DNA of 42,035 nucleotides from Clostridia bacterium (GTDB lineage: Bacteria > Bacillota > Clostridia > Christensenellales > Borkfalkiaceae), in NCBI GenBank assembly GCA_017626305.1, contig JAGAIW010000023.1, forward strand, positions 1 to 42,035, given 5' to 3'. The position numbers and the translations under genes were made by a program. How positions within the stretch are numbered: the first letter of the stretch is position 1; the number at the start of each line of letters is the position of its first letter. Shown one piece after another: positions 27,359 to 42,026 of this stretch. The notes beneath the pieces are model-generated. The model was not told where the DNA came from. It made no database searches and saw only the letters and a program-made list of their open reading frames with translations.

Positions 27359-27461
27359 CGCTCATACAATATATAAAATATCGTAGGAGCAAACGACTAT
27401 CAAATATAACGATACACAATATTCCATATCTATTTTACGAAAGAGGTTATTCGCCGTAGGT

Positions 27462-28988
27462 TTGGCGGTAACCTTTCTTTTTTTATTGCTTTTCGGACGG
27501 TTTTTCTACGTGCAGGTGATTTGGCAGGAAGAACTCAACTATCGCGCGCTTGATCAATGGACGAGAGAAATTCCTATTATCGCAGGCAGGGGAAAAATTA
27601 CCGACACCAACGGCGTCGTGCTGGCGGATAATAACGCCGCGTATACGGTGTTTGCCCGTTCCAACGCCGTCAAGGATAAAGCGGCGACGTCGGCGCTTTT
27701 GGCGAATACGCTCGGCTTGGACGAGAAAACGATATACGATAAATTGACGAAGAAAAAAGCGTCCGAAGTAACGCTTGTAAGACAAGTGGATAAATCGGTT
27801 GCGGAAAAGCTTGCAAGCCTGTCGCTTGACGGCGTGTATTATTCTCGTGATAATACGCGCTACTATCCTAAGGGCGACGCGCTTTGCCAAACGCTTGGTT
27901 TTACGTCCATTGATAACGTAGGTACGACGGGGATAGAAAAGTACTACGAAAAGTATCTTTCGGGCAAAAACGGCGAATTATTATACGAAACCGACCTTGT
28001 AGGGATAGAAATCGAAGGCAGCGTCGCTACGTACGTTCCTGCGGAAGACGGATATAACGTACAGCTCACCATTGATTACGGCATACAAGAAATTGTCGAA
28101 AGCGCATTAAAAAAAGTCATGGAAACGTATGCGCCCGTGGCGGCGGAATGTATCGTTTTGGACGTGAATACCTTTGAAATTCTCGCCCTTGCCAACTATC
28201 CGTCGTACGATTTAAACGATATCCCCCGTAATGATGGGGAGCTTTTAAACGCCTTGACGAGAAACCGCATGATTTGTGATATTTATGAGCCGGGCTCGAC
28301 GTTTAAAATCATTACGTCCGCCGTCAACTTGGAAGAATATTATCGCGGAAATACAAAGGCGTATTCGCCAAATTACGTATTTTCCAGCGCTCGCACAAGG
28401 GCGGTAGACGGTACGACCGTCAAATGTTGGAGTAATCACGCCAACGGCAAGCACAGCAATCAAACGCTTGCGCAGGCGCTAAATAATAGCTGTAACCCTT
28501 GCTTTACGGACATGGCGCTAGCCTTGGGAAAAGAAACCTTTTACGACTATTTGTCCGCTTTTGGTTTTGGTAAGAAAACGGGCGTGGATTTTAGTGGCGA
28601 AAGCTACGGCTTGCTCATGCCCAAACAAGCGGTTCGCGCTTGCGATTTAGCGCGTATAGGGTTTGGTCAAACGGTAGCCGTTTCAGGGTTGCAGCTTGCG
28701 TGCGCTTGCGCGGCGACGGTCAACGGCGGCTATTATTACCAACCACGTTTGGTTAAACGCGTGTATGCCGACGACGGATATACCGCGTTGCAAACGAAAG
28801 CGGAGCTCATTTCTCGTCCCGTCAGCGAACAAACGTCGCAAACCATGCGCAAAATGCTGGAAGGGGTCGTTACGGAAGGGAGCGGCAAAAAGGCGGCGGT
28901 TGAAGGCTATTTGGTTGGAGGAAAAACGGGTGATATTCTGACAACTTGTGTAAATCTCGTCAAAAATCTTATTAAAATATATACTTGA
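27462..28988 (+). CDS. class B penicillin-binding protein (FtsI/SpoVD type), 3' end replaced by mobile element
   Basis: This is a septal or spore peptidoglycan transpeptidase. It has an N-terminal membrane anchor, a dimerisation domain, and transpeptidase motifs STFK (active serine 279 counted from the TTG at 27462), SCN and KTG (488-490). After KTG the usual TAQ and roughly 80-150 further residues are missing. Instead the frame runs about 18 residues into A/T-rich element DNA and stops, so the enzyme is almost certainly inactive as it stands. The start is uncertain. TTG at 27462 lacks a good ribosome binding site and gives no cytoplasmic basic segment, whereas AGGAG at 27385-27389 sits 9 nt before an ATC at 27399 that would restore one. 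There is no ATG or GTG in between. Confidence 0.85.
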   Translation: MAVTFLFLLLFGRFFYVQVIWQEELNYRALDQWTREIPIIAGRGKITDTNGVVLADNNAAYTVFARSNAVKDKAATSALLANTLGLDEKTIYDKLTKKKASEVTLVRQVDKSVAEKLASLSLDGVYYSRDNTRYYPKGDALCQTLGFTSIDNVGTTGIEKYYEKYLSGKNGELLYETDLVGIEIEGSVATYVPAEDGYNVQLTIDYGIQEIVESALKKVMETYAPVAAECIVLDVNTFEILALANYPSYDLNDIPRNDGELLNALTRNRMICDIYEPGSTFKIITSAVNLEEYYRGNTKAYSPNYVFSSARTRAVDGTTVKCWSNHANGKHSNQTLAQALNNSCNPCFTDMALALGKETFYDYLSAFGFGKKTGVDFSGESYGLLMPKQAVRACDLARIGFGQTVAVSGLQLACACAATVNGGYYYQPRLVKRVYADDGYTALQTKAELISRPVSEQTSQTMRKMLEGVVTEGSGKKAAVEGYLVGGKTGDILTTCVNLVKNLIKIYT

Positions 28989-29113: not shown

Positions 29114-30013
29114 ATGCCGATATACTACTATGGATTACGCAAACTTATGGACGATAATAATATTACGCAAAAAGCACTTGCTGAAGCTTGTGACATTGCG
29201 CCAAATTCAATTTCACGTATGATGCAAGGCGAATATGTCTCAATAGAAACAATTGATAAAATTTGTAATTTCTTCAATTGCGATTATGGTAATATTATTA
29301 CACGATTTAAAAAAGATGATCCTATCGGTTATGTAAGTGATGCTCAATACGAAGAAGGTATGGCACAGGTTAGAACTGCATTGGTTTACTATATGGAAAA
29401 AACAGGAGAGGCTGTTTCAAGGGTAAGTCAGAAAACAACACTATCGGTCAATACGATAAAATCTTTCCTTTTGGGAAATCCGATTCATTCGACGTCATTT
29501 TTGAAGTTGACCAAATTGGGAGATGTCTTTAATAACAGATTGGCTGAAATAATGAATGGAGCAATGAAACCCGATGAGTATATTGCACCGAAGCCAATCA
29601 AAAAAGTTTCCTTTAAGGTATATTATAAATTATTAAAATTGGTACCAAATGGTAAACTTGCAAGAAGGGAGGACATCGAGGCATACGTTGCAAAAAAGTT
29701 AAACGTAGAATATGTTTCTTTTGCATTGTTTAAGGGGGATTCTCAATGGGAGTTCAGTACGGATATTATGTTTACGATTCCATATTGGAGAGAAATCTCA
29801 ACTCGTGGCGTTTTGCAAGAGACAAGTAAATGTTCAAAAGAAACACAAGAACAGGCATTAATCGAAGAAGGTCATACTTTAGTTAAATACGGAAGAGATT
29901 CCAAACGAGTAGAAGACTTCCAAAATAAGCTCTTTGATTTTAATTCAATTGACGATAAGACTTTCTTTGAAATTTATGATGATGAAGAATCAAAACGATT
30001 TTACGAATTTTAA
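29114..30013 (+). CDS. XRE-type HTH protein fused to an alkyltransferase-like (ATL/MGMT) domain
   Basis: This 299-residue protein has a clear Cro/C1-type helix-turn-helix at 1-60 (ITQKALAEACDIAPNSISRM) and a second HTH-like segment at about 90-125. From about residue 168 the pattern VPNGKL...DIEAYVAKKL, then IPYWREISTRG (222-232), then an alternation ending QALIEEGHTL, follows the DNA-binding domain of O6-alkylguanine transferases and ATL proteins. The nucleophilic cysteine of IPCHRVV is replaced by tyrosine (Y224), so no alkyl transfer is expected. It could be a repressor, or a sensor of alkylated DNA that controls the element. AGGAGAG precedes the ATG. The gene stands alone with its own promoter. 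Confidence 0.6.
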   Translation: MPIYYYGLRKLMDDNNITQKALAEACDIAPNSISRMMQGEYVSIETIDKICNFFNCDYGNIITRFKKDDPIGYVSDAQYEEGMAQVRTALVYYMEKTGEAVSRVSQKTTLSVNTIKSFLLGNPIHSTSFLKLTKLGDVFNNRLAEIMNGAMKPDEYIAPKPIKKVSFKVYYKLLKLVPNGKLARREDIEAYVAKKLNVEYVSFALFKGDSQWEFSTDIMFTIPYWREISTRGVLQETSKCSKETQEQALIEEGHTLVKYGRDSKRVEDFQNKLFDFNSIDDKTFFEIYDDEESKRFYEF

Positions 30014-30104: not shown

Positions 30105-30125
30105 ATTGCCATCTGGAGGATGATT

Positions 30126-31421
30126 ATGGAACGAAAAATTTATCAAGAATTATTAAACTGGAAAAACAACGAAGCTCGTAAACCATTAATCTTGCAAGGT
30201 GCAAGACAAGTAGGCAAAACGTATATAGTCAATTATTTTGCAGGTAAAGAATATCAAAATTATATTTACTGTAATTTTGAGAAAGAAAAGGGGTTAGAGG
30301 ATTTCTTTACAGATTTGAACCCTGAAAATATAATTCGTAAATTAGCGAATTATAAACGTAAAGAAATTTTACCGAAAGACACTTTGATTATTTTTGATGA
30401 AATTCAGTCTTGCCCACAAGCAATTACTTCTTTAAAGTATTTTAATGAGGAAGCGAATGAATACCATATCGTTGCACTTGGCTCATTATTAGGCGTTTCA
30501 GTAAATCGTGGCAATTTTTCATTCCCTGTTGGTAAAGTTCAATTTTTAACAATGTATCCAATGGATTTTGAAGAATACTTGCTTGCAAAGGGAGAAGAGT
30601 ACTTAGTGGGGCAAATTAAAGATTGTTACGCAAGCGATACACCATTAGATACACTTTTTCACGAACGTGCGCTTGACTACTATAAAGAGTATTTATTCGT
30701 TGGCGGTATGCCTGAAGTGGTTGAAAATTACATCAAGAATAAAAACACTGAAATGGTAAGAATAGCGCAACAAACTATTTTGGAATCGTATCAAAACGAT
30801 ATGGGTAAATATAATAAACAATCTGAAATTCCAAAGACCAAGATTGTCTATAAAAATATTAGCACCCAACTTGCTAAAGAGAATAAAAAGTTTCAATACA
30901 AGTATGTGAAATCAGGTGGACGCGCTTCTGAATTTGAGAGTGCAATAGAGTGGTTGTGTTTGGCCGGTGTTGCAAGTCAGTTATATCGTATAGAGCAAAT
31001 TGCTTTACCGTTAAATGCTTATAGGTCATTATCAGACTTTAAGTTTTATATGAATGACGTTGGGCTTTGTGGTGCAAGTCAAGATATACATTTTGACGAT
31101 ATTCAGCGAGACAATCCCTTGTTATATAATTTCAAGGGTGGCTTAACTGAAAATTACGTGTTTAATCAATTTACGAGTAATGGATTTGATTTATATTATT
31201 GGACTAGCGGAAATCAAGCGGAAATAGATTTTATTGTAAGAGTTAATGAAGAAATTGTTCCTGTTGAGGTAAAATCTTCGGATAACACTCGTTCAAGAAG
31301 CTTATCCGTTTATAATGGTAAATACGCTCCAGCATATTCAATCCGATTATCAATGAAGAACTTCGGATTTGAAAATGGTATAAAATCAGTTCCACTTTAC
31401 GCAGCGTTTTGTATTAAATAA
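30126..31421 (+). CDS. AAA ATPase of the AAA_14/DUF4143 family
   Basis: This 431-residue P-loop ATPase has Walker A GARQVGKT (25-32) and Walker B LIIFDEIQSC. The C-terminal DUF4143 part ends in EIDFIVR...VPVEVKS, where D368 and E381-x-K383 form a PD-(D/E)XK nuclease-like pattern. The family is widespread and of unknown function; proposals include roles in mobile elements or defence. The second ATG at 30126 is chosen: it is 6 nt from GGAGG, while the ATG at 30120 touches it. It is monocistronic within the element, and a hairpin lies 38 bp after the stop. Confidence 0.85.
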   Translation: MERKIYQELLNWKNNEARKPLILQGARQVGKTYIVNYFAGKEYQNYIYCNFEKEKGLEDFFTDLNPENIIRKLANYKRKEILPKDTLIIFDEIQSCPQAITSLKYFNEEANEYHIVALGSLLGVSVNRGNFSFPVGKVQFLTMYPMDFEEYLLAKGEEYLVGQIKDCYASDTPLDTLFHERALDYYKEYLFVGGMPEVVENYIKNKNTEMVRIAQQTILESYQNDMGKYNKQSEIPKTKIVYKNISTQLAKENKKFQYKYVKSGGRASEFESAIEWLCLAGVASQLYRIEQIALPLNAYRSLSDFKFYMNDVGLCGASQDIHFDDIQRDNPLLYNFKGGLTENYVFNQFTSNGFDLYYWTSGNQAEIDFIVRVNEEIVPVEVKSSDNTRSRSLSVYNGKYAPAYSIRLSMKNFGFENGIKSVPLYAAFCIK

Positions 31422-31459: not shown

Positions 31460-31490
31460 AAGGCAGAATTAAAATGTTCTGTCTTTTTTT
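31460..31490 (+). terminator. hairpin with U-run just upstream of the next ribosome binding site
   Basis: AAGGCAGAA (31460-31468) and TTCTGTCTT (31477-31485) form a stem with one G-U pair followed by a run of T. The ribosome binding site of the next gene starts only 11 nt later (31501), so that gene must be read through this hairpin. Confidence 0.75.
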
Positions 31491-31509
31491 ATTTTCAAAA
31501 GGAGGCTTT

Positions 31510-32550
31510 ATGAGTTGTTTGATGAAATTTAAGTGGGTGAAATTGCCACGCGAAATTATCCCTCAAAAGAAAGGAATTATGGGGTATTGGATGAAACTTG
31601 CTGCAAGGGTTGCTTTTAGAAAAGGGCAATCCTTTTATTGTGGTCACACCAATGAGGTAAATCCTGGCGAGTGGGTTGGTGGCATTATGGGTCTAAAGAG
31701 TATTCTTGGAATTAAATCGAAAGAAAAAGCGATACAAGTTATGGATGAGCTTAATAGATTTGGATATATAACTTATAACGTTGACGTTCAAACTAAAAAA
31801 TTGACTTATAAAATAAACGACTGGGTTATCGAATGTTCAGGAAAAGAATGTCTAAACGACAATACTTATGCAACTAACGATTATGGCTTTCTTTGCGTAC
31901 CGAGAAATATTACTGAACGTCTTGTGAATAACGGGTATAAATTTGCCGAATCTGATGCGTGGTTAGACCTTTGGATTCATACGATTTATGAAGATAGAAA
32001 AAATTTTTTAACTTTTTTTGCTCCAATGGTAAGGTTTCAAGAATTGAATGTCTTCTTATCATTGGAGACACTTAGTAAGCGCTGGGGCTGGGAAAAGACA
32101 AAAACGTGGAGATTTTTCCAAAAAAATAAGGAGGTGTTTGAATTATATCGTCTTCCCGGAACTTACGGCTGTTTGCTATTCAATAAGTTGTATCCGATCA
32201 GTAAAGATATAGTATTACCAAAACAAGCAGAAATAATTGAAATAATTTTGAAAACACGACAGACGTTAGAAGATAGGAAAGTAGATTGCGCTCACGGGAA
32301 TCTAGGGTATCTTATCGAAACAATGGGAGAGGATTTTACAAACTTGATTGTTAATGAGAGAGAAAAAAATAGCGTTGCACTTTTTCATTATATAATACGC
32401 GCGTATATTTCTCCGTGTTGGAAAGACGTTAAAATTAGTTATGACTGCAAAGAATATTATATATTACTCAAAGGAGAAGTTATTGAACTAAATAAAATAC
32501 GTGGTCCTTGTGTGTCTCTGGATTTACACGATAAGGAGAATCAGCAATGA
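31510..32550 (+). CDS. winged-helix DNA-binding protein, possible replication initiator of the element
   Basis: This 346-residue protein has no certain assignment. The N-terminal part (KWVKLPREII...GYWMKLAARVAF...IKSKEKAIQVMDELNRFGYI) and the middle part (LETLSKRWGWEKTKTWRFFQKN) both resemble winged helices of the kind in phage or plasmid replication and DnaD-like proteins. No catalytic motif is visible. The start at 31510 is fixed by GGAGG at 31501-31505; an upstream in-frame ATG lies inside the leader hairpin. It overlaps the next gene by 4 bp. An initiator or partition-type role is only inferred from the fold and position. Confidence 0.5.
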   Translation: MSCLMKFKWVKLPREIIPQKKGIMGYWMKLAARVAFRKGQSFYCGHTNEVNPGEWVGGIMGLKSILGIKSKEKAIQVMDELNRFGYITYNVDVQTKKLTYKINDWVIECSGKECLNDNTYATNDYGFLCVPRNITERLVNNGYKFAESDAWLDLWIHTIYEDRKNFLTFFAPMVRFQELNVFLSLETLSKRWGWEKTKTWRFFQKNKEVFELYRLPGTYGCLLFNKLYPISKDIVLPKQAEIIEIILKTRQTLEDRKVDCAHGNLGYLIETMGEDFTNLIVNEREKNSVALFHYIIRAYISPCWKDVKISYDCKEYYILLKGEVIELNKIRGPCVSLDLHDKENQQ

Positions 32551-33212
32551 AAGAAAAAAAAGAAACTAATGAAATGAGAAAGGCAGAAATGTCCAAAGAA
32601 ATTAATGTGATGAAACAAGAACATTCGGATTTTTTAAGGTTGTTCTTGGACGGTACACTTACTGGTGATACCAAGAAAGTTGATGAAGTTCTACAAGACT
32701 TTAAGAATAATAAGATGCCGAAGGCATTTCATAACACTAGATTACTACTTAGAAATTACAAAAAAATAGTTTGGTTGGTTGAATGTTTTCCTGAATTTAT
32801 TGCAACGGAACTTGCTCAACCATTAGAGAGCGTTGATAAACTTTTGGCTCGTGTTGATGGAGAATTAGCGTTTGGGAATAAAAAACTTGATAGGAAATTA
32901 GCTAGCATTGAAAAGACAAGAATGGTTTTGGAATTGGTGAACGATGCAATAAGTGTCTTGCAGAAAATGCCTAAGGGCGAAAATATGTATCAAGTTATTT
33001 ATTTGACTTATGCAACGCAAGAAGATTTGACCATTGATGATATTTTGTACCGATTAAATATATCGAGAAAGAAATATTATTTACTTAGGGACCAAGCTAT
33101 AGCATTAATTTCTATTCGTTTATGGACGAGCGCAGACAAGGATTTGGCATTTTGGTTAGAGTTGCTGTACATTTATGAAAACAGAAAAAAAGATGGAGGT
33201 GAAGATAATTAA
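32547..33212 (+). CDS. ArpU/sigma-region-4-like regulatory protein
   Basis: This 221-residue protein is charged and helical in its first half. Its C-terminal part (QVIYLTYATQEDLTIDDIL then YRLNISRKKYYLLRDQAI) matches the pattern of phage-type late regulators of the ArpU/RinA kind and sigma factor region 4. AAGGAG lies 8 nt upstream and it overlaps the previous gene by ATGA, so they are coupled. As the only clear activator-like protein before the transfer genes, it is a candidate controller of the duplicated promoter module at 33881-34179. That link is inference. Confidence 0.6.
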   Translation: MKEKKETNEMRKAEMSKEINVMKQEHSDFLRLFLDGTLTGDTKKVDEVLQDFKNNKMPKAFHNTRLLLRNYKKIVWLVECFPEFIATELAQPLESVDKLLARVDGELAFGNKKLDRKLASIEKTRMVLELVNDAISVLQKMPKGENMYQVIYLTYATQEDLTIDDILYRLNISRKKYYLLRDQAIALISIRLWTSADKDLAFWLELLYIYENRKKDGGEDN

Positions 33213-33833: not shown

Positions 33834-33880
33834 AAAAAGATTCTTAAGATTGAGACTTTTTAGAGAAGAATATTAAAAAT

Positions 33881-34006
33881 TTTTTAAAAGGATACGAAAC
33901 ATACACAAAAAATATACAAAACTTACACAAAAAAGAGATATAAAGGGAATTCCTAATGTGTTAAAATGATATCGTGAAAAAATTGAAACCAGACGTGAAA
34001 CCACCG
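33881..34006 (+). promoter_or_regulatory. regulatory module, copy 1 of a tandem duplication
   Basis: This stretch of about 126 bp is repeated 173 bp downstream without gaps (about 90% identical over the core 33891-33995). It contains two 22-bp direct repeats (starting TACGAAAC at 33893 and TACAAAAC at 33915), each with a second half TACACAAAAA. These lie just upstream of an extended -10, TGTTAAAAT (33959-33967), that has no good -35. This is the layout of an activator-dependent promoter. Its transcript would end at the hairpin 33998-34037 after about 60 nt unless antiterminated. Confidence 0.6.
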
Positions 34007-34037: not shown

Positions 34038-34053
34038 AGTTAAATTTTAATTT

Positions 34054-34179
34054 TTTTTAAAAAGATACGAAACTTACACAAAAAATATACAAAACTTATA
34101 CAAAAAAGAGATTTAACGGGGATTCTCAATGTGTTAAAATGGTATCGTGGAAAAATTGAAACCAAACGAACGCACCGCT
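34054..34179 (+). promoter_or_regulatory. regulatory module, copy 2, directly upstream of the pilin gene
   Basis: This is the second copy of the module, with the two 22-bp repeats at 34066-34109 and the extended -10 TGTTAAAAT (34132-34140). The differences from copy 1 are single-base changes, about ten in the 105-bp core, showing that the duplication is not recent. Transcription would start near 34147 and run into the hairpin at 34173-34207 before reaching the pilin gene at 34235. Confidence 0.6.
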
Positions 34180-34234: not shown

Positions 34235-34597
34235 ATGCAAGCAGAAAAGCAAAAAGGTGCTTGGATAAAAATTGTATACTGGTCTCTTGTCTTTGCTTTC
34301 ATGGCTATTCTTGTTTGTATGCAGACAACGTTTGCAGCAACTGAAACTATGTGGGATAGATTTGAAACCGTTATGAACGATTTTTATTATAAGCTTCTTG
34401 GTATCAGTACCATTATTGCTGTTGCGATGGCAGCAGTGGCTTTGGTTGTAAGAATGGTTTCTAGGAACCAAAAAGCAGTAGATGAAGCAAGTGCTTGGTT
34501 GAAGAGAATTTTAATTACTTGGGTTATATTGAATTCTCTCGGACTAATTGTAGCGTATGTACAACCGCTTATTGCGGGCGGAAATTACGTTGGGTAA
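34235..34597 (+). CDS. VirB2/TrbC-like pilin-type protein
   Basis: This 120-residue protein begins with a signal-like hydrophobic segment (about 13-34) ending FAA, a probable cleavage site. Two further membrane helices lie at about 55-75 and 90-112. This is the layout of VirB2/TrbC conjugative pilins and of the small membrane protein that opens transfer operons in Gram-positive elements. AGGAGG lies 8 nt upstream. It is the first gene of the transfer operon; TrbL follows after 30 bp. Confidence 0.72.
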   Translation: MQAEKQKGAWIKIVYWSLVFAFMAILVCMQTTFAATETMWDRFETVMNDFYYKLLGISTIIAVAMAAVALVVRMVSRNQKAVDEASAWLKRILITWVILNSLGLIVAYVQPLIAGGNYVG

Positions 34598-34627: not shown

Positions 34628-36700
34628 TTGCTTGATTGGATGTTTGAAGGGATAGTTGACTGGGTTAGCGGTGTTGTCACGGACCTCATGGACGCTGTTT
34701 CTGGATTATTCTTAAATGCGCTCGGTACAGATATGACGGCAATGGAAGAATATTTTCCTTTTGTCGCAAGTGCGTTCACTGTAATGCAGTATATGGCTTG
34801 GGCGTTGTTGTTTTTAATAACAGTGTGGCAACTGTTCAAGGCTTTCAGCGGACCACTTGGGGAATCTGAAAATCCTTGGACATTAATTTTTAAGAGTGCG
34901 TTATTTGCGTTATTGATTTATTTCGCTAAACCTATATTCTTATATATATTGAATATAGCGAAAGCTCCGTACACGGCTTTAATGGACGTGGTTGTATCAA
35001 AAGAGCATTTCACTTTTGCGGGAATTGAAGGAGCTCTACGAAATGGTTTAACCAACTTCATTTCAATGGTATCGGTGGTGGGCGAAATCTTAATCCTTAT
35101 ATTAATTATTGCACTCGGATGGAACTATTTCAAATTATTATTGGAAGTCGTAGAAAGATATATCGTTGTTGGTGTTCTTTGTTATACTTCGCCATTGGCT
35201 TATTCGATGGGTGCGTCACAAAGTACCAGCCAAGTATTTAAGTCATGGTGTAGAATGGTAGGCTCACAGTTATTACTATTAATAATGAACGTTTGGTTCC
35301 TACGAGCATTTAACAGTTCGGTGGGACATTACGTTGGAGCAGGGGGAGCACTAACAAACGGACACGGAAGCGTATTCCTTTGGTTGTTCTGTGCTCTGGC
35401 ATTCTTAAAGACGGCTCAAAGGTTTGATGCATACCTTGCATCAATAGGTCTCAACGTAGCACAAACAGGAACTGGTCTTGGTTTTGAATTACTTATGGCC
35501 GCAAGATTAGTAACAAGCGGTATGGGTGGTTTCTCAAGAGCTGGAAATGTGTTTGGTTCTGGTGCAGGCGGTGTTGCCGCTGCTGGTGGCGCAGGTGGTT
35601 TCTTCAGTAGATTCAAAGGGAACTCATTTGTTAGGGATTCCGTTGTTCAAGGAGGAACACGAATGGGCGCTGGTGGTGCAATTGGTGTTGTGGGACGAGC
35701 CTTTGGCGGAGTTGCAGCAAGAAACGGTGCGACTTTAACGGGTGAATCGATTGCGTCTGTTGCGGGAAGACATCCCAGCGTTTCAGGAACCATCGGAGGA
35801 GATATTGCCAATAAGAGTTTGGAAAACTATATGCCACACCTTAAAGGGAAAACACTTAGCGATACTCAAATAACGGGTGGTAAGATATCTACGACCGCTA
35901 TCGGAACTGACGGTAAACAAGCGGCATTAAGTATGTATAGTGCTGAGCAGTTTGAAAAGCCGAGCGAACCACATTCAATTGTTACGGCAACGGATGGAAG
36001 TAAATGGTATCAAACGGCAAGTGGTGCTGGGGCAGGAGAATATAATGATTTGTCTGGTTTCCAAAATGGTGTTATGGATAGTGGGCAGGTTTCAACTATG
36101 TTCCCCGGAGTAGAAAACGGAACCGTTTTAAGGTCTGTTGGCGATGGGGTAGTTGAAGCAAGTAATGCTAATGGAAATACGCTTTGGTATAACAGTGCTT
36201 ACTTTGATGAACCTGACGCTCCACACTCAACCTTGTACACAGAGAACGGGGTTGCATGGTATGCAATGAATCCTAATGCAGAAATGCCGTCTTTTGAAAG
36301 TGGTAGCGATGCAACGGATTATAATATCGCACAATTCCAAAACTTTATGCCTGGATATGAGGGGACCGTTACGTCTGTAAGTGAAGGAGATAATGGAAGA
36401 TTTGAAATCCGACATGAAGACGGTTCGGGAACTCGTTTCTATGATTCGAATCAATATGAAACACCAAGGAACGATTATACCGTGTACGAAGATAATACCG
36501 GACATCAATGGTATGCCGTAGATGGAACACCTGCGGTTGAACGTCGTCCCGTTTACGAGAACGGCGAGCCAGTATATAATGGCGATAATGTAAGAACGGT
36601 ATCGGTTGAAACCGTGAGATATAGGGGAGAACCTTCAAGATTCGGAACTCCTAAATCAAGAACAGATTCTTTTGACCGAGAACCTAGAAGAAAAAGATGA
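34628..36700 (+). CDS. TrbL/VirB6-family conjugation membrane protein with repeat tail
   Basis: This 690-residue protein is the multi-spanning channel component of the conjugative type IV secretion system. Residues of about 40-290 hold six or more membrane helices, and a glycine/alanine-rich linker (about 300-370) follows. The long hydrophilic tail contains three diverged repeats, each with a short tyrosine/phenylalanine motif, a PHS or DYT segment and a WY pair (KWYQ, AWYA, QWYA), at roughly 438-470, 515-545 and 605-635. It starts at TTG 34628, 9 nt from GGGAGG, with no better start nearby. The tail ends in a basic cluster (EPRRKR). Confidence 0.85.
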   Translation: MLDWMFEGIVDWVSGVVTDLMDAVSGLFLNALGTDMTAMEEYFPFVASAFTVMQYMAWALLFLITVWQLFKAFSGPLGESENPWTLIFKSALFALLIYFAKPIFLYILNIAKAPYTALMDVVVSKEHFTFAGIEGALRNGLTNFISMVSVVGEILILILIIALGWNYFKLLLEVVERYIVVGVLCYTSPLAYSMGASQSTSQVFKSWCRMVGSQLLLLIMNVWFLRAFNSSVGHYVGAGGALTNGHGSVFLWLFCALAFLKTAQRFDAYLASIGLNVAQTGTGLGFELLMAARLVTSGMGGFSRAGNVFGSGAGGVAAAGGAGGFFSRFKGNSFVRDSVVQGGTRMGAGGAIGVVGRAFGGVAARNGATLTGESIASVAGRHPSVSGTIGGDIANKSLENYMPHLKGKTLSDTQITGGKISTTAIGTDGKQAALSMYSAEQFEKPSEPHSIVTATDGSKWYQTASGAGAGEYNDLSGFQNGVMDSGQVSTMFPGVENGTVLRSVGDGVVEASNANGNTLWYNSAYFDEPDAPHSTLYTENGVAWYAMNPNAEMPSFESGSDATDYNIAQFQNFMPGYEGTVTSVSEGDNGRFEIRHEDGSGTRFYDSNQYETPRNDYTVYEDNTGHQWYAVDGTPAVERRPVYENGEPVYNGDNVRTVSVETVRYRGEPSRFGTPKSRTDSFDREPRRKR

Positions 36701-36783: not shown

Positions 36784-36824
36784 TATAATATCGGAGAAAT
36801 TTAAAAACTTAATATAATTATGAT

Positions 36825-36856
36825 AAGAGTCGGTAAAAAGTTATCGGCTCTTTTTT
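36825..36856 (+). terminator. leader hairpin before the 299-residue membrane protein gene
   Basis: AAGAGTCGGT (36825-36834) and ATCGGCTCTT (36843-36852) form a 10-bp stem with two G-U pairs, followed by more T. The ribosome binding site (AAGGAGG) follows within about 10 nt, so there is no room for a promoter between them. Confidence 0.8.
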
Positions 36857-36879
36857 CATGCGAAGGAGGTAAATATTTT

Positions 36880-37779
36880 GTGGCAGAACAAACAAAACAA
36901 CAAGTCGGCGACGGTAAAGACAATTACGGGCAGGCCGCAAAAAATATATCAAAAGCCGCCAAAGGTATTGGCAAGGCAGCGGCGAACACCGCAAAAGAGG
37001 GTGCAAAAGCAACGGCAAACGTCGCGGCCCAGACAGTAAAAGCTGGTGTAAAAACAGGTAAAGCTGTTTCTCAAATTGCAGCAGGCACAGCAGCAGGTGG
37101 GCCGTGGGGAGCGATTATTTCAGCAGCGTGGTCAATGCGCCATACGTTGTTTAAGATTTTTGTTTCTATAACGCTAGTTATTGTTTTTATAGTCGTTGCA
37201 ATTCTTTCTATCCCTAGTATTATTTTTGATACAATTTTCGGAAATAAGTTCGAAGGATTAGGAGAGCAAACGTCAATAGTACAAGCTTATGAAGAGTTGT
37301 CAAGCACGGTGGACGATATTATAGATATTGCTTTTGAGCTTACGTTAGGTAGAGTTGACGATATTATTTCTATTGGTAACTATGATTACTCAATGTCTAT
37401 GAAACATCTAACGTATACAAGACCAACAAGCAATGATTATGATACCTATTATATTATTGCAGCGTATTCTGTTTCAATGAATCAGCAAGGGACAAGTCAA
37501 GAAAATTTCGCCAATAAACTTAACAGCGTAAGCACTTTGATGTTCCCTATAAAATATCAAATTTGCAAAGCGAACCGAATAATAGATACATTACTTGGTC
37601 CAATAGATGAAATCTTTGAGTACGTTGTTTGTACGATATTACCATTTGATCCAAGCTCAATATTAACAGCATTCGATTTGGACTTGAATGCAAAGTATGG
37701 TGAGTTTGATATTACAAATGGTGAGGCTATTGAGTTTATGGCAACGGCTTTAGAAAAAACGCTAAATGAAGGAGGATGA
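36880..37779 (+). CDS. conjugation membrane protein, N-terminal half of a CD1108-like protein without hydrolase domain
   Basis: This 299-residue protein has an alanine/lysine-rich cytoplasmic segment (about 1-75), one strong membrane helix (about 98-125, after AAWSMRHTLFKIF) and a mainly extracellular remainder. That first part recalls the start of the cell-wall hydrolase proteins (lytic transglycosylase/NlpC-P60) of Tn1549-like elements, but no hydrolase motif is present here. GTG at 36880 is chosen as start because AAGGAGG lies 10 nt upstream; an upstream ATG falls inside the leader hairpin. It ends 1 bp before the PrgI-like gene. Confidence 0.6.
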   Translation: MAEQTKQQVGDGKDNYGQAAKNISKAAKGIGKAAANTAKEGAKATANVAAQTVKAGVKTGKAVSQIAAGTAAGGPWGAIISAAWSMRHTLFKIFVSITLVIVFIVVAILSIPSIIFDTIFGNKFEGLGEQTSIVQAYEELSSTVDDIIDIAFELTLGRVDDIISIGNYDYSMSMKHLTYTRPTSNDYDTYYIIAAYSVSMNQQGTSQENFANKLNSVSTLMFPIKYQICKANRIIDTLLGPIDEIFEYVVCTILPFDPSSILTAFDLDLNAKYGEFDITNGEAIEFMATALEKTLNEGG

Positions 37780-37780
37780 T

Positions 37781-38113
37781 ATGGATGAAAGAGAACTAGA
37801 AAACGTATATAGTATTCCAGTTAATTATACCGATTCAGGTAAGTTGCTTGGTGGATTGCTTTCCTGGAGAAATGCTATTGAAACAATTATATTAGTTGTG
37901 GCTTTAGGATTTGTAGAATTAAAGTTAATACCAATGCCTGATATGGTAAAGGTAGTGGTAATGACAATAACGTTAGTACCGCTTGCAATATTTAGTGCGA
38001 TGGGTGTTGACGGTGATTCTTTACTACAGTTTTTAGGTCGGATTCTAAAGCATCTATTTAAGAGAAAAAAATTACATTTCAAAAGGGTGGACGTAAAAAA
38101 TGAAGAAAAATAA
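37781..38113 (+). CDS. PrgI-family conjugation protein
   Basis: This 110-residue protein has two membrane helices (around AIETIILVVALGFVELKL and VVVMTITLVPLAIFSAMG) and a basic C-terminal tail, the layout of PrgI/TcpE-like proteins that precede VirB4 in Gram-positive transfer operons. Start at ATG 37781, 5 nt after GGAGG; an earlier in-frame ATG (37766) precedes the ribosome binding site. It overlaps virB4 by 14 bp. Confidence 0.8.
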   Translation: MDERELENVYSIPVNYTDSGKLLGGLLSWRNAIETIILVVALGFVELKLIPMPDMVKVVVMTITLVPLAIFSAMGVDGDSLLQFLGRILKHLFKRKKLHFKRVDVKNEEK

Positions 38114-40565
38114 ACTTGAGTTTGCACAGGATATTATTCCCGTGAAAGATATAAAGGCAGGCATTATTGAAACCACAGATGGAAGATATATTAAGATTCT
38201 TGAAATTGAGCCTATAAACTTTATGTTGCGGTCAGATGATGAGCAATTTTCAATTATTTCTTCATTTGCAAGTTGGTTAAAAATATGTCCAGTAAGGATG
38301 CAGTTTAAAAGTATAACACGGCGAGCTGACACTGAAAAGCACTTGGAGGTTTTGAGGAAAGAACTTAGAGCCGAATCGGATAATAAATGTTGGACGCTTG
38401 GCGAAAGTTATATCAATCTGATAAAAGAGGTAGGAAGTAAGGAAGCGCTAACAAGGCGCTTTTTTCTTATATTTCAATATGAGTCGCCACACAAGAACGA
38501 TGATTTCCAACAAGTATATTCTTCACTTCAAACGGTGGAGCAGAACGCAAGGGCTTATTTTTCGCAATGTGGCAACAGTATAATGCAATATAAAAATCCA
38601 AATGAAGAGATTATGGAAATTTTATATACGTATTTTAATCGTAATTCATGTACGACGGAGCCTTTTGTAAAAAGAGTAGAACGTGTCGTGATGGACGCGA
38701 TGAGAGTTGAAGGCAAGACGATTGGGGTTGATGAAGTCCCGAACGTGCCTATTAAGAATTTTATCGCACCAAGGGGAATTGATTTTACCAATCATACCTA
38801 TACGATTATGGATGGTAGATATTATACGGTTCTATATATCAAGGGGAATGGATACCCAAGTAAAGTAAGAGCAGGGTGGTTATCTACTTTAATCAATGCT
38901 GGTGAGGGTGTAGACGTTGACGTCTTCTTGAAGAAAGAAAACAAAAGCAAAGTAATAGATAAGGTTGCGCAAAAAATTAGGCTCAATAGAACAAAGCTTA
39001 AAGACATGCAAGATACAAGTACTGATTACGAAGAGTTGACGAATTCAATTCAAGCAGGCTATTACATTAAACAAGGAATTGCAAACTATAACGAGGATTT
39101 GTTTTATATGTCGGTATTTATTACTGTTTCTGCAAAAACAAAGAAAGAACTTTTATGGCGAAAACAACGAGTGATAGATACGCTTAAAGCAGTTGATATA
39201 TGCGTTTCAGAAGGTAAGTTTCAACAAGAAGAAGCGTTTAAGAGTGTAATGCCTTTTTTAAGTGTATCGCCAGTGCTTGATAAGAAAAGCAAGCGAAACG
39301 TTTTAACAAGTGGTGCAGCGTCTTCGTATATGTTTACGAGTTTTGAAATGTCGGATGATACGGGTGTTTTGCTCGGGGTGAATCAACATAATAATTCGCT
39401 TTGCATAGTTGACCTTTTTAATACGAAGAAAAATAAAAACGCAAACCTAAATCTTATCGGGACAAGCGGTGCTGGTAAAACGTTCACGATGCAGTTGCTT
39501 GCTTTACGTATGCGTATGCGTGGTATTCAATCGTTTATTCTTGCGCCTATAAAAGGGCATGAGTTTAAGCGAGCCTGTAAAAAAATAGACGGAAGTTTTA
39601 TTAGAATTGCTCCTGGCTCACCGCACTGTATAAACGTAATGGAAATACGTCAAACGATTAGTCCAGAAATGGAATTGATAGACGGGATAGATTATAGGGA
39701 AAGTGATTCGCTGCTAGCAGGAAAAATTCAACAGCTTATGATTTTCTTTACTCTTTTAATTCCTGATATCACGAACGAAGAAGAGCAACTTCTTGATGAA
39801 GCGCTGATAAAAACATATAAAGATTTTGGCATAACACATAAAAACAAAAGTTTGTATGTGAACGGCGACAAAAAAACATTTAAGAAAATGCCAGTCCTTG
39901 GTGATTTACATAAGAAATTAAAAGATAATCCAAGAACGGAACGGCTGGCAATAATCTTGAGTAGATTTGTTACGGGTTCAGCACAGTCCTTCAATCGTCA
40001 AACAAACGTGGATTTATCAAACAAATATATCGTCATAGATTTATCCGAATTAAAAGGTAAACTTTTACCAGTAGGTATGATGATAGCTCTTGACTACGTT
40101 TGGGACAATATCAAGATGGATCGTATAAAGAAAAAAGCGGTTTTCATTGATGAAATATGGCAACTTGTCGGCGCATCGGCTAATAGCCTTGCTGCCGATT
40201 TTTGTTTGAATATTTTCAAAACGATTAGAGGTTATGGTGGTGCAGCGATAGCGGCGACACAAGATTTATCTGACTTTTTTGGATTGGAAGATGGAAAGTA
40301 CGGCAGAGCTATTATCAATAACAGTCAAAATAAAATCATTTTGAATTTGGAACATGATGAGGCTCAATATGTAAGAGACGTGTTAAAACTTACGAGAACA
40401 GAGATTCACGCTATAACAAGTTTTGGTAGAGGTGAGGCATTGGTTTGTTCAAGTGCTAATAAGATACCGATTGTTATAAAAGCGTCGGAAGAGGAACACG
40501 AATCCATTACGACGGATAGGGCAGAGCTTGAAGCAATTCTGCAAAAACATAAAGCAAAAGAATAA
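38100..40565 (+). CDS. VirB4-like conjugative transfer ATPase
   Basis: This 821-residue ATPase powers assembly and substrate handling of the conjugative type IV secretion system at the cytoplasmic face of the membrane. Walker A is GTSGAGKT (454-461) and Walker B is AVFIDEIW (D684, E685), followed by the conserved IRGYGGAAIAATQDLSDFF. The N-terminal CagE/TrbE-like domain (ILEIEPINF, FASWLKICP) is intact. It starts inside the PrgI-like gene and is the most reliable marker of the element as conjugative. Confidence 0.93.
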   Translation: MKKNKLEFAQDIIPVKDIKAGIIETTDGRYIKILEIEPINFMLRSDDEQFSIISSFASWLKICPVRMQFKSITRRADTEKHLEVLRKELRAESDNKCWTLGESYINLIKEVGSKEALTRRFFLIFQYESPHKNDDFQQVYSSLQTVEQNARAYFSQCGNSIMQYKNPNEEIMEILYTYFNRNSCTTEPFVKRVERVVMDAMRVEGKTIGVDEVPNVPIKNFIAPRGIDFTNHTYTIMDGRYYTVLYIKGNGYPSKVRAGWLSTLINAGEGVDVDVFLKKENKSKVIDKVAQKIRLNRTKLKDMQDTSTDYEELTNSIQAGYYIKQGIANYNEDLFYMSVFITVSAKTKKELLWRKQRVIDTLKAVDICVSEGKFQQEEAFKSVMPFLSVSPVLDKKSKRNVLTSGAASSYMFTSFEMSDDTGVLLGVNQHNNSLCIVDLFNTKKNKNANLNLIGTSGAGKTFTMQLLALRMRMRGIQSFILAPIKGHEFKRACKKIDGSFIRIAPGSPHCINVMEIRQTISPEMELIDGIDYRESDSLLAGKIQQLMIFFTLLIPDITNEEEQLLDEALIKTYKDFGITHKNKSLYVNGDKKTFKKMPVLGDLHKKLKDNPRTERLAIILSRFVTGSAQSFNRQTNVDLSNKYIVIDLSELKGKLLPVGMMIALDYVWDNIKMDRIKKKAVFIDEIWQLVGASANSLAADFCLNIFKTIRGYGGAAIAATQDLSDFFGLEDGKYGRAIINNSQNKIILNLEHDEAQYVRDVLKLTRTEIHAITSFGRGEALVCSSANKIPIVIKASEEEHESITTDRAELEAILQKHKAKE

Positions 40566-40585: not shown

Positions 40586-41110
40586 ATGCTTTTGCTAGAG
40601 GATGAGAAAAATGTCATCAAATGGCTGTCACAATATGGGGCTTTAAGAAAAACGCAACTTATTAGAATGCTGCAAAAGCCTAAATCGACAGCCGAAAAAA
40701 TAATAAGAAATTTAAAGAATGATTTGAGACTGGAAATATTAGGCGACGGATATTATATTGGATTGGATTCAATGTCTTGGCCTGACCAAAAGATGCTAAC
40801 AGCGGTTTGGGTGCTTCTTGAATTTGTAGAAAAGATTGATCCGATGGGACATTATCCGGCTACATATCCATCTCAAATATTTTTCTTGAAGGAGAATGTC
40901 GGTTATGAAATAGTTGTGTTGTATGAAGATGAAACAAATTTATTAAGGCTTATTCAAGTAGATGAAGACTTGAAATATATTGTGGTTGTTCCGCATATTT
41001 CAATGGCAAAAAAAATAAAAGTGCCTAAAAATATGAACTGTTTGTTTGCTACCGTAGACTTCAACGGAGCGGAAGAACCAAACGTACATTTTTATACGGT
41101 AGAAAAATAA
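40586..41110 (+). CDS. DUF5697-like winged-helix protein of conjugative elements
   Basis: This 174-residue protein has an N-terminal helix-turn-helix (about 7-45: WLSQYGALRKTQLIRMLQ...AEKIIRNLK). The following domain includes the block MGHYPATYPSQIFFLKENVGYEIVVLY, shown here only in part; I associate it from memory with the DUF5697 proteins common beside VirB4 in Clostridia elements. The function is unknown, but DNA binding is likely. Tandem ribosome binding sites AGGAGG and GAGGAG precede the ATG, 20 bp after virB4. Confidence 0.65.
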   Translation: MLLLEDEKNVIKWLSQYGALRKTQLIRMLQKPKSTAEKIIRNLKNDLRLEILGDGYYIGLDSMSWPDQKMLTAVWVLLEFVEKIDPMGHYPATYPSQIFFLKENVGYEIVVLYEDETNLLRLIQVDEDLKYIVVVPHISMAKKIKVPKNMNCLFATVDFNGAEEPNVHFYTVEK

Positions 41111-41144: not shown

Positions 41145-42026
41145 ATGAAAAAAAACAAAAACAATTTTAAGAAAAAAGAAACAGAAGAATTTAAACCTTT
41201 TACGCCTGAAGTAAAAGAGCGTATTATTGAAAAATACAAGAACAGACCTAGAACACCTAGAGAAAGTAACAACTTATTAAATGAATTAATGCAATATACG
41301 AGGGATTACCAAATTATAGGTTGGTTTATTGAGGAACTTGACTTCCCTTTCCCTGATGACGAAGAACCAGCGACTCTAAACATAGTAAAGAAGATTGATA
41401 AAATCTTTGAGCAAGAACTTCAAAAATATTTAAGAAAAATATCGGATAGGGCGTGTAAATCGGGTAGTGTGTTTGCAGAAACGGACATGGGCAATGCTTG
41501 CCTAGAAATTATAGCATGTACCGAAAGAATTGCTAGACTTGCAAGAGAACTTCCAGTTTCTGTGGGGATTCAAAATGCAAAAGAAGAAGTAAATGAAGTT
41601 GTGGGCAGGGAACTTAAGATTATTGTAGAACAAACAAGGGAAGGCTGGCTAAAGGTAAAATTACCTTTCATTCTTCCCAAAAAAGAGAAAGGCTCAAGCG
41701 CATATTTACGTGATGTTTTGTATTGTGCATTGCAAGATTATTTTAGCGATAGGGAACCTGTGAAATTTGACCATTCCGTAATCGTGGTTAAGCACGTGTA
41801 TGGAAAAGGAAGAAAAGATAAGATGAGATGCGACCATGATAATTTTGAGATAAATTTTATCACAGATGCAATTGCGCTTTTTGCACTTCCTGATGATTCA
41901 CCAGAACACTGTCAAATGTTCAGTTATTCGGAGCGAGGAGAGAAAGAGCATAGTTGTATTTATCTTGTGCCTGAACAGGACTTTATGAAATATTACTCAC
42001 ACCATATTATGAGGAATTTTTCATAA
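41145..42026 (+). CDS. protein with C-terminal RusA-like motif
   Basis: In this 293-residue protein the first 60 or so residues are basic and helical, and the middle is a helical region with conserved cysteines (KIIDKIF, CLEIIACTERIARL). The C-terminal part shows the acidic pattern of RusA Holliday-junction resolvases: D230-H-D232-N233, then D241-A, then DDS (250-252). The catalytic lysine of RusA does not appear at the expected place. It may be a resolvase-like nuclease for element processing or a non-catalytic relative. A CGGAGG ribosome binding site precedes the ATG. The gene is complete, ending 9 bp before the window edge. Confidence 0.5.
   Translation: MKKNKNNFKKKETEEFKPFTPEVKERIIEKYKNRPRTPRESNNLLNELMQYTRDYQIIGWFIEELDFPFPDDEEPATLNIVKKIDKIFEQELQKYLRKISDRACKSGSVFAETDMGNACLEIIACTERIARLARELPVSVGIQNAKEEVNEVVGRELKIIVEQTREGWLKVKLPFILPKKEKGSSAYLRDVLYCALQDYFSDREPVKFDHSVIVVKHVYGKGRKDKMRCDHDNFEINFITDAIALFALPDDSPEHCQMFSYSERGEKEHSCIYLVPEQDFMKYYSHHIMRNFS

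Follow-up and report, generated by a model that had tools for sequence, protein, structure and literature searches.

The KTG codons of a spoVD-like gene as the probable attachment site of a family of integrative elements in Clostridia

The KTG region of spoVD is very likely the attachment site of a family of integrative elements in uncultured gut Clostridia, at which a GG exchange by a large serine recombinase would split the gene. We observed both junctions of these elements, their core, the recombinase genes in relatives, recurrence across species, recent transfer and the likeness of the target to SpoVD. In the mechanism that we propose, the elements would attach at the codons GGN AAR ACN GGN ACN GCN CAR, where a large serine recombinase coded near the right end would join attP to attB by a 2-bp (GG) exchange, separating the 5' part of spoVD, which closes with KTG, from the remaining 3' part (~70 codons). 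With the element in place, growth would be tolerated and proper spore formation blocked, provided that the SpoVD/SpoVE pair of the dcw cluster serves sporulation only, and excision would restore spoVD exactly.

A class B PBP gene split at its KTG codons

The window, by which we mean the whole stretch of 42,035 bp analysed here, is the entire contig C167 of a 189-contig assembly (genome G000 in our comparisons). It carries a class B PBP gene with dcw neighbours recognised by eye, whose start codon is uncertain: the frame is open from 27393 and its first ATG/GTG/TTG lies at 27462. The region of the break comprises:

27393..28931, + strand: 5' part of the spoVD-like class B PBP, including the KTG codons (best NCBIfam match TIGR02214 spoVD_pbp)
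28929..28930, + strand: putative 2-bp crossover core GG in the Gly codon of KTG, flanked by host-variable bases, with symmetrical arms in types A and B
28931..28988, + strand: left end of the element, in frame with the PBP
28944..28953, + strand: attachment-site arm motif ACTTGTGTAA, at an equal offset in types A and B (ACTTGCGCAA in type C, GCTTGCGCAA in type D)

The PBP reads GGA (28920-28922), AAA (28923-28925), ACG (28926-28928) and GGT (28929-28931) on the + strand, and past KTG (28923-28931) the frame runs through 18 foreign codons to a stop at 28986-28988. The Pfam Transpeptidase profile covers positions 4-240 of 299 in the window PBP, ending at KTG, and positions 4-299 in an intact congener, while G+C falls by ~15 points, from ~0.48 upstream of the junction to 0.31-0.33 downstream. 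Codons, profile and G+C all agree with the initial annotation, which had described a PBP that is normal up to KTG and then turns into A/T-rich DNA, and the splitting of the PBP by element DNA at KTG is confirmed. The same annotation had placed the insertion exactly after KTG; the KTG codons are indeed the site, but the exchange would fall within the Gly codon itself (GG, 28929-28930).

The element is cut off by the contig end at 42035, and its right end lies outside the window. A search of the window's own genome recovered no spoVD 3' part, and type A right-end DNA (see below) had no match there; the right half is therefore argued from relatives, in which the missing T-A-Q part of the PBP was found beyond the right end of the element, where the initial annotation had suggested looking for it. 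The contig of the window genome that carries murE (C73) ends among unrelated genes upstream of murE, named by eye, short of spoVD. Some species have metabolic-type genes, again named by eye, in the interval from spoVD to murE (G000:C73, i.e. L093; L085 of G013), which looks like a variable insertion spot within the dcw cluster.

Recurrence of the insertion among relatives

We searched 57 congeneric genomes with the PBP protein of an intact congener and made the counts by hand. A match was present in 48, and the left junction lies at the KTG codon in 11 (G000, G046, G031, G065, G043, G035, G018, G058, G034, G042 and G013), with truncation at query residue 512 (513 in G034). The PBP is intact in 29. 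Four genomes are special cases: G054 shows the right junction only, with the 3' part behind the element end; G066 has both PBP parts and no visible junction, its left contig ending at about residue 468 and its right contig starting at the core; G060 has a PBP broken elsewhere with KTG uninterrupted; and G048 has a partial PBP. Under the stricter limit of the family-wide search, the dcw PBP gene was not found in 13 of the 57. The gene is thus interrupted in 12 of the 42 informative species of the genus (~29%), the others being the 29 intact ones and G060 with its uninterrupted KTG.

With G342, which belongs to another genus, the genomes whose left junction falls at this codon number 12; they span two genera and their host flanks differ. 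Both junctions are present in six genomes (G043, G042, G065, G058, G013 and G342). The suggestion that the KTG codons serve as attachment site across hosts is supported, the site being used in many species. An assembly chimera or contamination would find some ground in the fragmented metagenome assemblies, several contigs of which end 80-343 bp from the junction, inside the element. Against this stand the 12 same-codon left junctions with their differing flanks and the matching right halves with differing 3' ends; chance, like an assembly join at 28931, is contradicted by the recurrence of the truncation in the 11 congeneric genomes, and we consider this explanation, which has next to no probability, ruled out by the independent junctions.

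In the assemblies examined no contig spans a whole element, and neither an excised junction nor a circle was seen in the assembled genomes; excision would be part of the proposed mechanism. In the family-wide PBP search of 398 genomes, the matches listed include several genomes of other genera (G711, G724, G729, G332 and G450 among them) with a weaker best score and two matches each; these could represent a split gene and were left out of the counts. G057, counted as intact from its copy on contig C11, also has a second spoVD 3'-end fragment at a contig start (C30:3-104).

Junction types and a two-base core

The left ends fall into four types. Type A, GATATTCTGACAACTTGTGTAA, is found in G000, G046, G031, G043, G018, G042 and G342; type B, GTTTTTGGTCTTACTTGTGTAA, in G065, G058 and G013; type C in G035 and type D in G034. 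The type A left end is identical over 22 bases in the six genus genomes and G342, and the other five genomes have three related left ends. A degenerate pattern of the left-end layout, allowing no mismatches, matched only G000 and G342 among 396 genomes of the order, a sample that held four genomes of the genus, of which only G000 has a left junction. At the other side, the spoVD 3' part follows element DNA in G043, G054, G042 and G342 (type A), in G065 and G058 (type B), and in G013.

Host-variable bases break off just ahead of GG in attL and start again directly behind it in attR (GGA in G043, GGC in G065 and G058, GGT in G042), so that GG alone makes up the strict core. In attL, GG is followed by T in 11 of 12 genomes and by G in G035. 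Which bases belong to the host was judged here by how intact genes vary (25 distinct sites). Of the repeat that the initial annotation expected to be shared with 28920-28935, GG is strictly shared, but the longer AAAACRGG likeness of type A corresponds to an attP resembling attB.

We reconstructed attP by joining right and left ends and compared its arms over 26 positions about GG. The arms match at 15 of 26 positions in type A (G043; 14 in G342) and at 19 of 26 in type B (G065), GG scoring highest in each case among 51 possible centres. When the centre was kept at GG, the G043 value was reached by 30 and the G065 value by 1 of 20,000 shuffles; with the centre free over the 51 positions, the observed values were reached in 173 (G043), 423 (G342), 0 (type B) and 1,771 (G013) of 2,000. 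In G013 the arms match at 12 of 26 positions; 906 of 20,000 shuffles did as well about a fixed centre, and higher scores occur about other centres. The combination of a 2-bp core and attP arms symmetrical about it is thus present, with a strength that differs by type: the symmetry is clear in type B, modest in type A taken alone, and weak for the mixed ends of G013. This last genome (L085, L077) has a left end of type B and, at the right end, recombinases of a different type; it may carry two tandem elements at one site.

A pair of large serine recombinases near the right end in relatives

Four relatives (G043, G065, G013 and G342) carry a tandem pair of large serine recombinases at the element's right end, the pair ending 0.1-0.8 kb ahead of the 3' part of spoVD. 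In G043, G065 and G342 these are Rec1, of 541-545 aa with Resolvase, Recombinase and Zn ribbon domains, and an overlapping Rec2 of 497-499 aa that lacks the Zn ribbon, followed by a short third ORF with the resolvase N-domain only that ends ~0.2-0.4 kb before attR. G013 has a different Rec1/Rec2 pair (541 and 470 aa) ending ~0.1 kb before attR. Recombinases of the Rec1/Rec2 type would be those that carry out the reaction.

Rec1 is 98% identical to that of G043 in G342, 65% in G065, 49% in G013 and 45% in G034, and these five are the only genomes of the 398 in the family to contain it at E <= 1e-100. In four of them it adjoins the spoVD 3' part, the exception being G034 (G034:C27; L096 at ~8400, reverse strand), where Rec2 breaks off after ~270-280 codons and runs into mraY. 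No spoVD 3' part was found in G034, and neither that part nor murE lies between Rec2 and mraY; a deletion or a false join is possible. The same family search found no Rec1 in several interrupted genomes, that of the window included, whose right part was perhaps not assembled or not binned.

A scan of genome contigs for Rec1 gave six loci. Four are close and all adjoin a spoVD 3' part (RGIG1792 from goat, RGIG8634 from water deer, RGIG4029 from roe deer, and SIG379); we take these records to be G043, G065, G013 and G342 again, respectively. The remaining two are distant (26%, and 41% of a short stretch). Among 64 IMG/VR loci with relatives of Rec1, none matched the intact PBP (E 1e-3), so that they are uninformative on the spoVD target; an IMG/VR scan for the type A left end gave no match, and in a plasmid collection the best place remained below 60% identity in all 472 records (~34% in the ten listed).

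Rec1 shares its Resolvase, Recombinase and Zn-ribbon architecture with the large serine recombinases of the Tn5397/TndX type (33.5% identical to TndX, with 89% of the query aligned) and with those of the ccrAB type of SCC, its best NCBIfam match being CcrB (96 bits, cut-off 900). The ccrAB recombinases are paired, as are Rec1 and Rec2, and both systems use targets other than spoVD.

Two small ORFs accompany the recombinases. The third ORF (L100:7570-7965; L080:4266-4664) has, by eye, Ala or Gly in place of the serine in the RLS motif of Rec1 and Rec2; it is possibly an inactive paralogue and could regulate recombination. An ORF of 58-59 aa just before Rec1 is conserved between types A and B (L083:1571-1750; L100:4233-4412; L080:933-1109); its L100 copy matched no Pfam family, and it is a candidate directionality factor.

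Genes of the element and conjugation

Downstream of its left end, the element encodes in the window:

29114..30013, + strand: HTH (Cro/C1-type) regulator
30120..31421, + strand: AAA_14 and DUF4143 ATPase, perhaps cargo
31474..32550, + strand: possible replication protein, with a weak DnaD-like match only (E 9e-5) and no Pfam or NCBIfam family
32547..33212, + strand: regulator-like ORF (weak match)
34235..34597, + strand: small membrane protein that by position may be the conjugation pilin; no family over cut-off
34628..36700, + strand: large membrane protein that by position may be the VirB6-like channel protein; no family
36820..37779, + strand: membrane protein placed by position in the conjugation module; no family over cut-off
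37766..38113, + strand: PrgI-like small membrane protein directly before VirB4 (PrgI E 9.7e-6, 26.5 bits, cut-off 27)
38100..40565, + strand: VirB4-like conjugative transfer ATPase (P-loop_TraG over cut-off; CD1110-family model 287 bits, cut-off 325)
40586..41110, + strand: DUF5697 protein
41145..42026, + strand: DUF6100 protein at the contig end

The run of unassigned ORFs is, by eye, of membrane type. The type IV secretion ATPase that characterises an ICE is present at 38100-40565, and this conjugation-type (VirB4) ATPase, carried by an element inserted in the KTG codons, supports the initial description of the element as conjugative. Among the ORFs scanned in the 13.1 kb of the element present before the contig ends inside it, we could not find any relaxase or coupling protein. 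The integrative element is very probably conjugative. It also contains a 116-bp repeat (33880-33995 and 34053-34168, copies 90.5% alike) that is matched in G046 and G342.

Recent spread between species

The window element is 99.92% identical to that of G046 over 6,401 bp, with host flanks at 71.5%, and 93.4% identical to that of G043 over 4,100 bp, with flanks at 72.3%. With G342 it shares 95.5% over 10,566 bp and 93.0% over 1,100 bp, and no flank could be aligned at the limit used. It is 100% identical to those of G031, G018 and G042 over the 107, 138 and 80 bp available. Such near-identity of the element in hosts with diverged flanks fits recent transfer and, from these alignments, indicates recent horizontal spread across species and one genus boundary.

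The target resembles SpoVD rather than FtsI

The best NCBIfam match of the PBP is TIGR02214 spoVD_pbp, with 442 bits for the truncated window protein and 520 for the intact L005; the curated cut-off of 688 is thus missed even by the intact congener. The runner-up models score 282/320 (MrdA) and 189/195 (FtsI) for truncated/intact. The best PDB match is 7rcz, a C. difficile protein whose label reads stage V sporulation protein D; it scores 339 bits, and the second-best match 200. The intact PBPs of the genus end before the C-terminal PASTA-like region (by eye) of their relatives in the order.

SpoIVA is over cut-off in 52 of the 57 congeneric genomes, and one SEDS gene is present in 43, being split in one. 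No second class B PBP was recognised in these 57 genomes, which answers the earlier call to count such genes: typically the dcw class B gene is accompanied by a single long PBP (547-1249 aa) that matches weakly and that we take as class A. Class A domains were tested in the window genome only, where one class A PBP stands beside the truncated class B PBP. This picture does not account for a 565-aa frame in G060, for a G002 fragment, or for genomes in which a single match or none was obtained. The target is thus closer to SpoVD than to FtsI or MrdA, lies in the dcw cluster and occurs in a genus with one SEDS gene and SpoIVA, which resolves it, as far as sequence can, as SpoVD-like rather than a division FtsI.

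In C. difficile, according to PMC10693644, the dcw SpoVD/SpoVE pair is sporulation-specific; cells without spoVD grow normally and make no heat-resistant spores, while the core synthase of division is a class A PBP. The same paper describes FtsW/FtsI as absent from many Clostridia. By orthology, SpoVD may be dispensable for growth in this genus too, and the insertion should be tolerated in growth with sporulation blocked. The initial annotation had expected disruption of an FtsI-like target to be lethal, unless another copy exists or excision is frequent, and had considered a switch like the sigK skin element for a SpoVD-like one. The likeness to SpoVD and the retention of SpoIVA speak for a SpoVD-like target, so that lethality is not expected, the paradox disappearing if SpoVD serves sporulation only, as in C. 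difficile; likeness, SpoIVA and the one-SEDS/one-class-B pattern together make an FtsI target with lethal disruption unlikely.

The lack of a recognised second class B PBP would also suit a model in which this protein is the sole class B enzyme of division or elongation, so that only excised cells divide and the inserted form is transient or confined to a subpopulation. We regard this as very unlikely, given the SpoVD-like sequence and the SpoIVA of the genus, the class A PBP of the window genome and the division role of such an enzyme in C. difficile, and the many Clostridia without FtsW/FtsI (PMC10693644); moreover, in 11 species of the genus it is the inserted form that was assembled.

Relation to known intervening elements

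Most of the known elements inserted in sporulation genes are prophages or resemble them. The closest known system is gin of Bacillus cereus ATCC 10987, described in the available text of PMC5595907 as a non-phage element that splits gerE and carries three genes for serine recombinases, of which two form an operon. It resembles the spoVD element in being non-phage, in splitting a sporulation gene and in having several serine recombinases, but differs in its target, and no conjugation genes are reported for it in that text, in contrast to the VirB4-type ATPase found here. Excision of gin relies there on a separate GirC with GirX, whereas the spoVD element has two large tandem recombinases and the short third ORF beside attR.

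Skin, in sigK of B. subtilis and C. difficile (PMC5025042), and SPbeta, in spsM (PMC4191935), likewise combine a large serine recombinase with a split sporulation gene, and in both, exact excision restores the gene and developmental excision is proven; for the spoVD element it is hypothetical. Unlike the latter, both are prophages or prophage-like, are non-conjugative and have other targets. As in skin and gin, a sporulation gene is split at a recombinase site, its sporulation role being assigned here by likeness only.

The initial annotation knew of no element described with this target. In the open-licence literature searched we found none with spoVD as dedicated site, but ICEBs1 has been recorded in B. 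subtilis spoVD as a secondary site, in strains without the normal attB and with undetectable excision (PMC3715440, available text): it is an ICE in spoVD, as here, for which this gene is not the dedicated site. The available main text of PMC10083194 does not contain the string spoV and mentions penicillin only as a culture additive.

The spoVD element would work like the intervening elements of sporulation genes and like an ICE of the large-serine-recombinase type; it differs in its target, its conjugation-type genes and its young, multi-species family. The catalytic motif of a sporulation cell-wall enzyme would be an attachment site in ~29% of the informative species of a genus, which in gut Clostridia would tie horizontal transfer directly to sporulation being lost or gated. 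The family provides new large serine recombinases with a defined attB, and makes the dispensability of dcw-encoded SpoVD for growth testable beyond C. difficile.

Switch or one-way insertion

A host with the element in place probably cannot make normal spores, and two opposite, narrower forms of our main explanation differ in what follows. In the first, which we consider unlikely, excision in the mother cell during sporulation rebuilds spoVD while the spore keeps the integrated copy, as with skin. In its favour, the target is a SpoVD-like sporulation gene, comparable to the genes split by skin, SPbeta and gin; exchange at GG would also rejoin the KTG frame. The detached 3' parts are free of stops over their first 60 codons in 8 of 8 cases, and their median pN/pS to the nearest intact relative is 0.104, against 0.106 for 26 intact genes; however, the element is young and mobile, so that open 3' parts may reflect recent insertion only.

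The regulation of the recombinases bears on the same reading. In G342 and G065, two of five Rec1 upstream regions, a sigma-A-like promoter (TTGACA-17-TATAAT) lies over palindromic operators ~300 bp before Rec1, the region in G043 being similar without matching, and no sigma-E-like site was found in the five with one crude regular expression. This speaks against a switch, but weakly so, since the C. difficile skin recombinase is constitutive and only its directionality factor is under mother-cell control (PMC5025042, available text). The promoter pattern neither proves nor excludes a skin-like switch. A further step, a transmissible conjugative 'skin', in which the ICE family gates host sporulation by exact excision and re-integration at the KTG codons of spoVD, seems to us rather improbable; if true, the decision to sporulate would be controlled by a transferable element shared between species.

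In the second form, which is possible if doubtful, insertion is one-way or rarely reversed, the host becomes asporogenous and its sporulation genes then decay, so that the element would gain its spread at the cost of sporulation in the host. An in-frame stop in spoIVA of the window genome and one near the start of spoVD in G018 favour decay over a switch, and the possible right-end deletion in G034 fits as well. Against decay, single stops in metagenome assemblies can be errors, G044 has a SpoIVA stop together with an intact spoVD, no such stop occurs in the SpoIVA matches of the ten remaining interrupted genomes of the genus (G035 has no match), and the open 3' parts mentioned above do not suggest it either.

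The SpoIVA stop of the window genome is early in the gene (G000:C82, ~73495-75085; L181), and G044 is the only other case among the SpoIVA matches of the genus. In G018 (L072) the spoVD frame has one TAG ~490 codons before the junction, near the N-terminus. All of these stops could be assembly errors.
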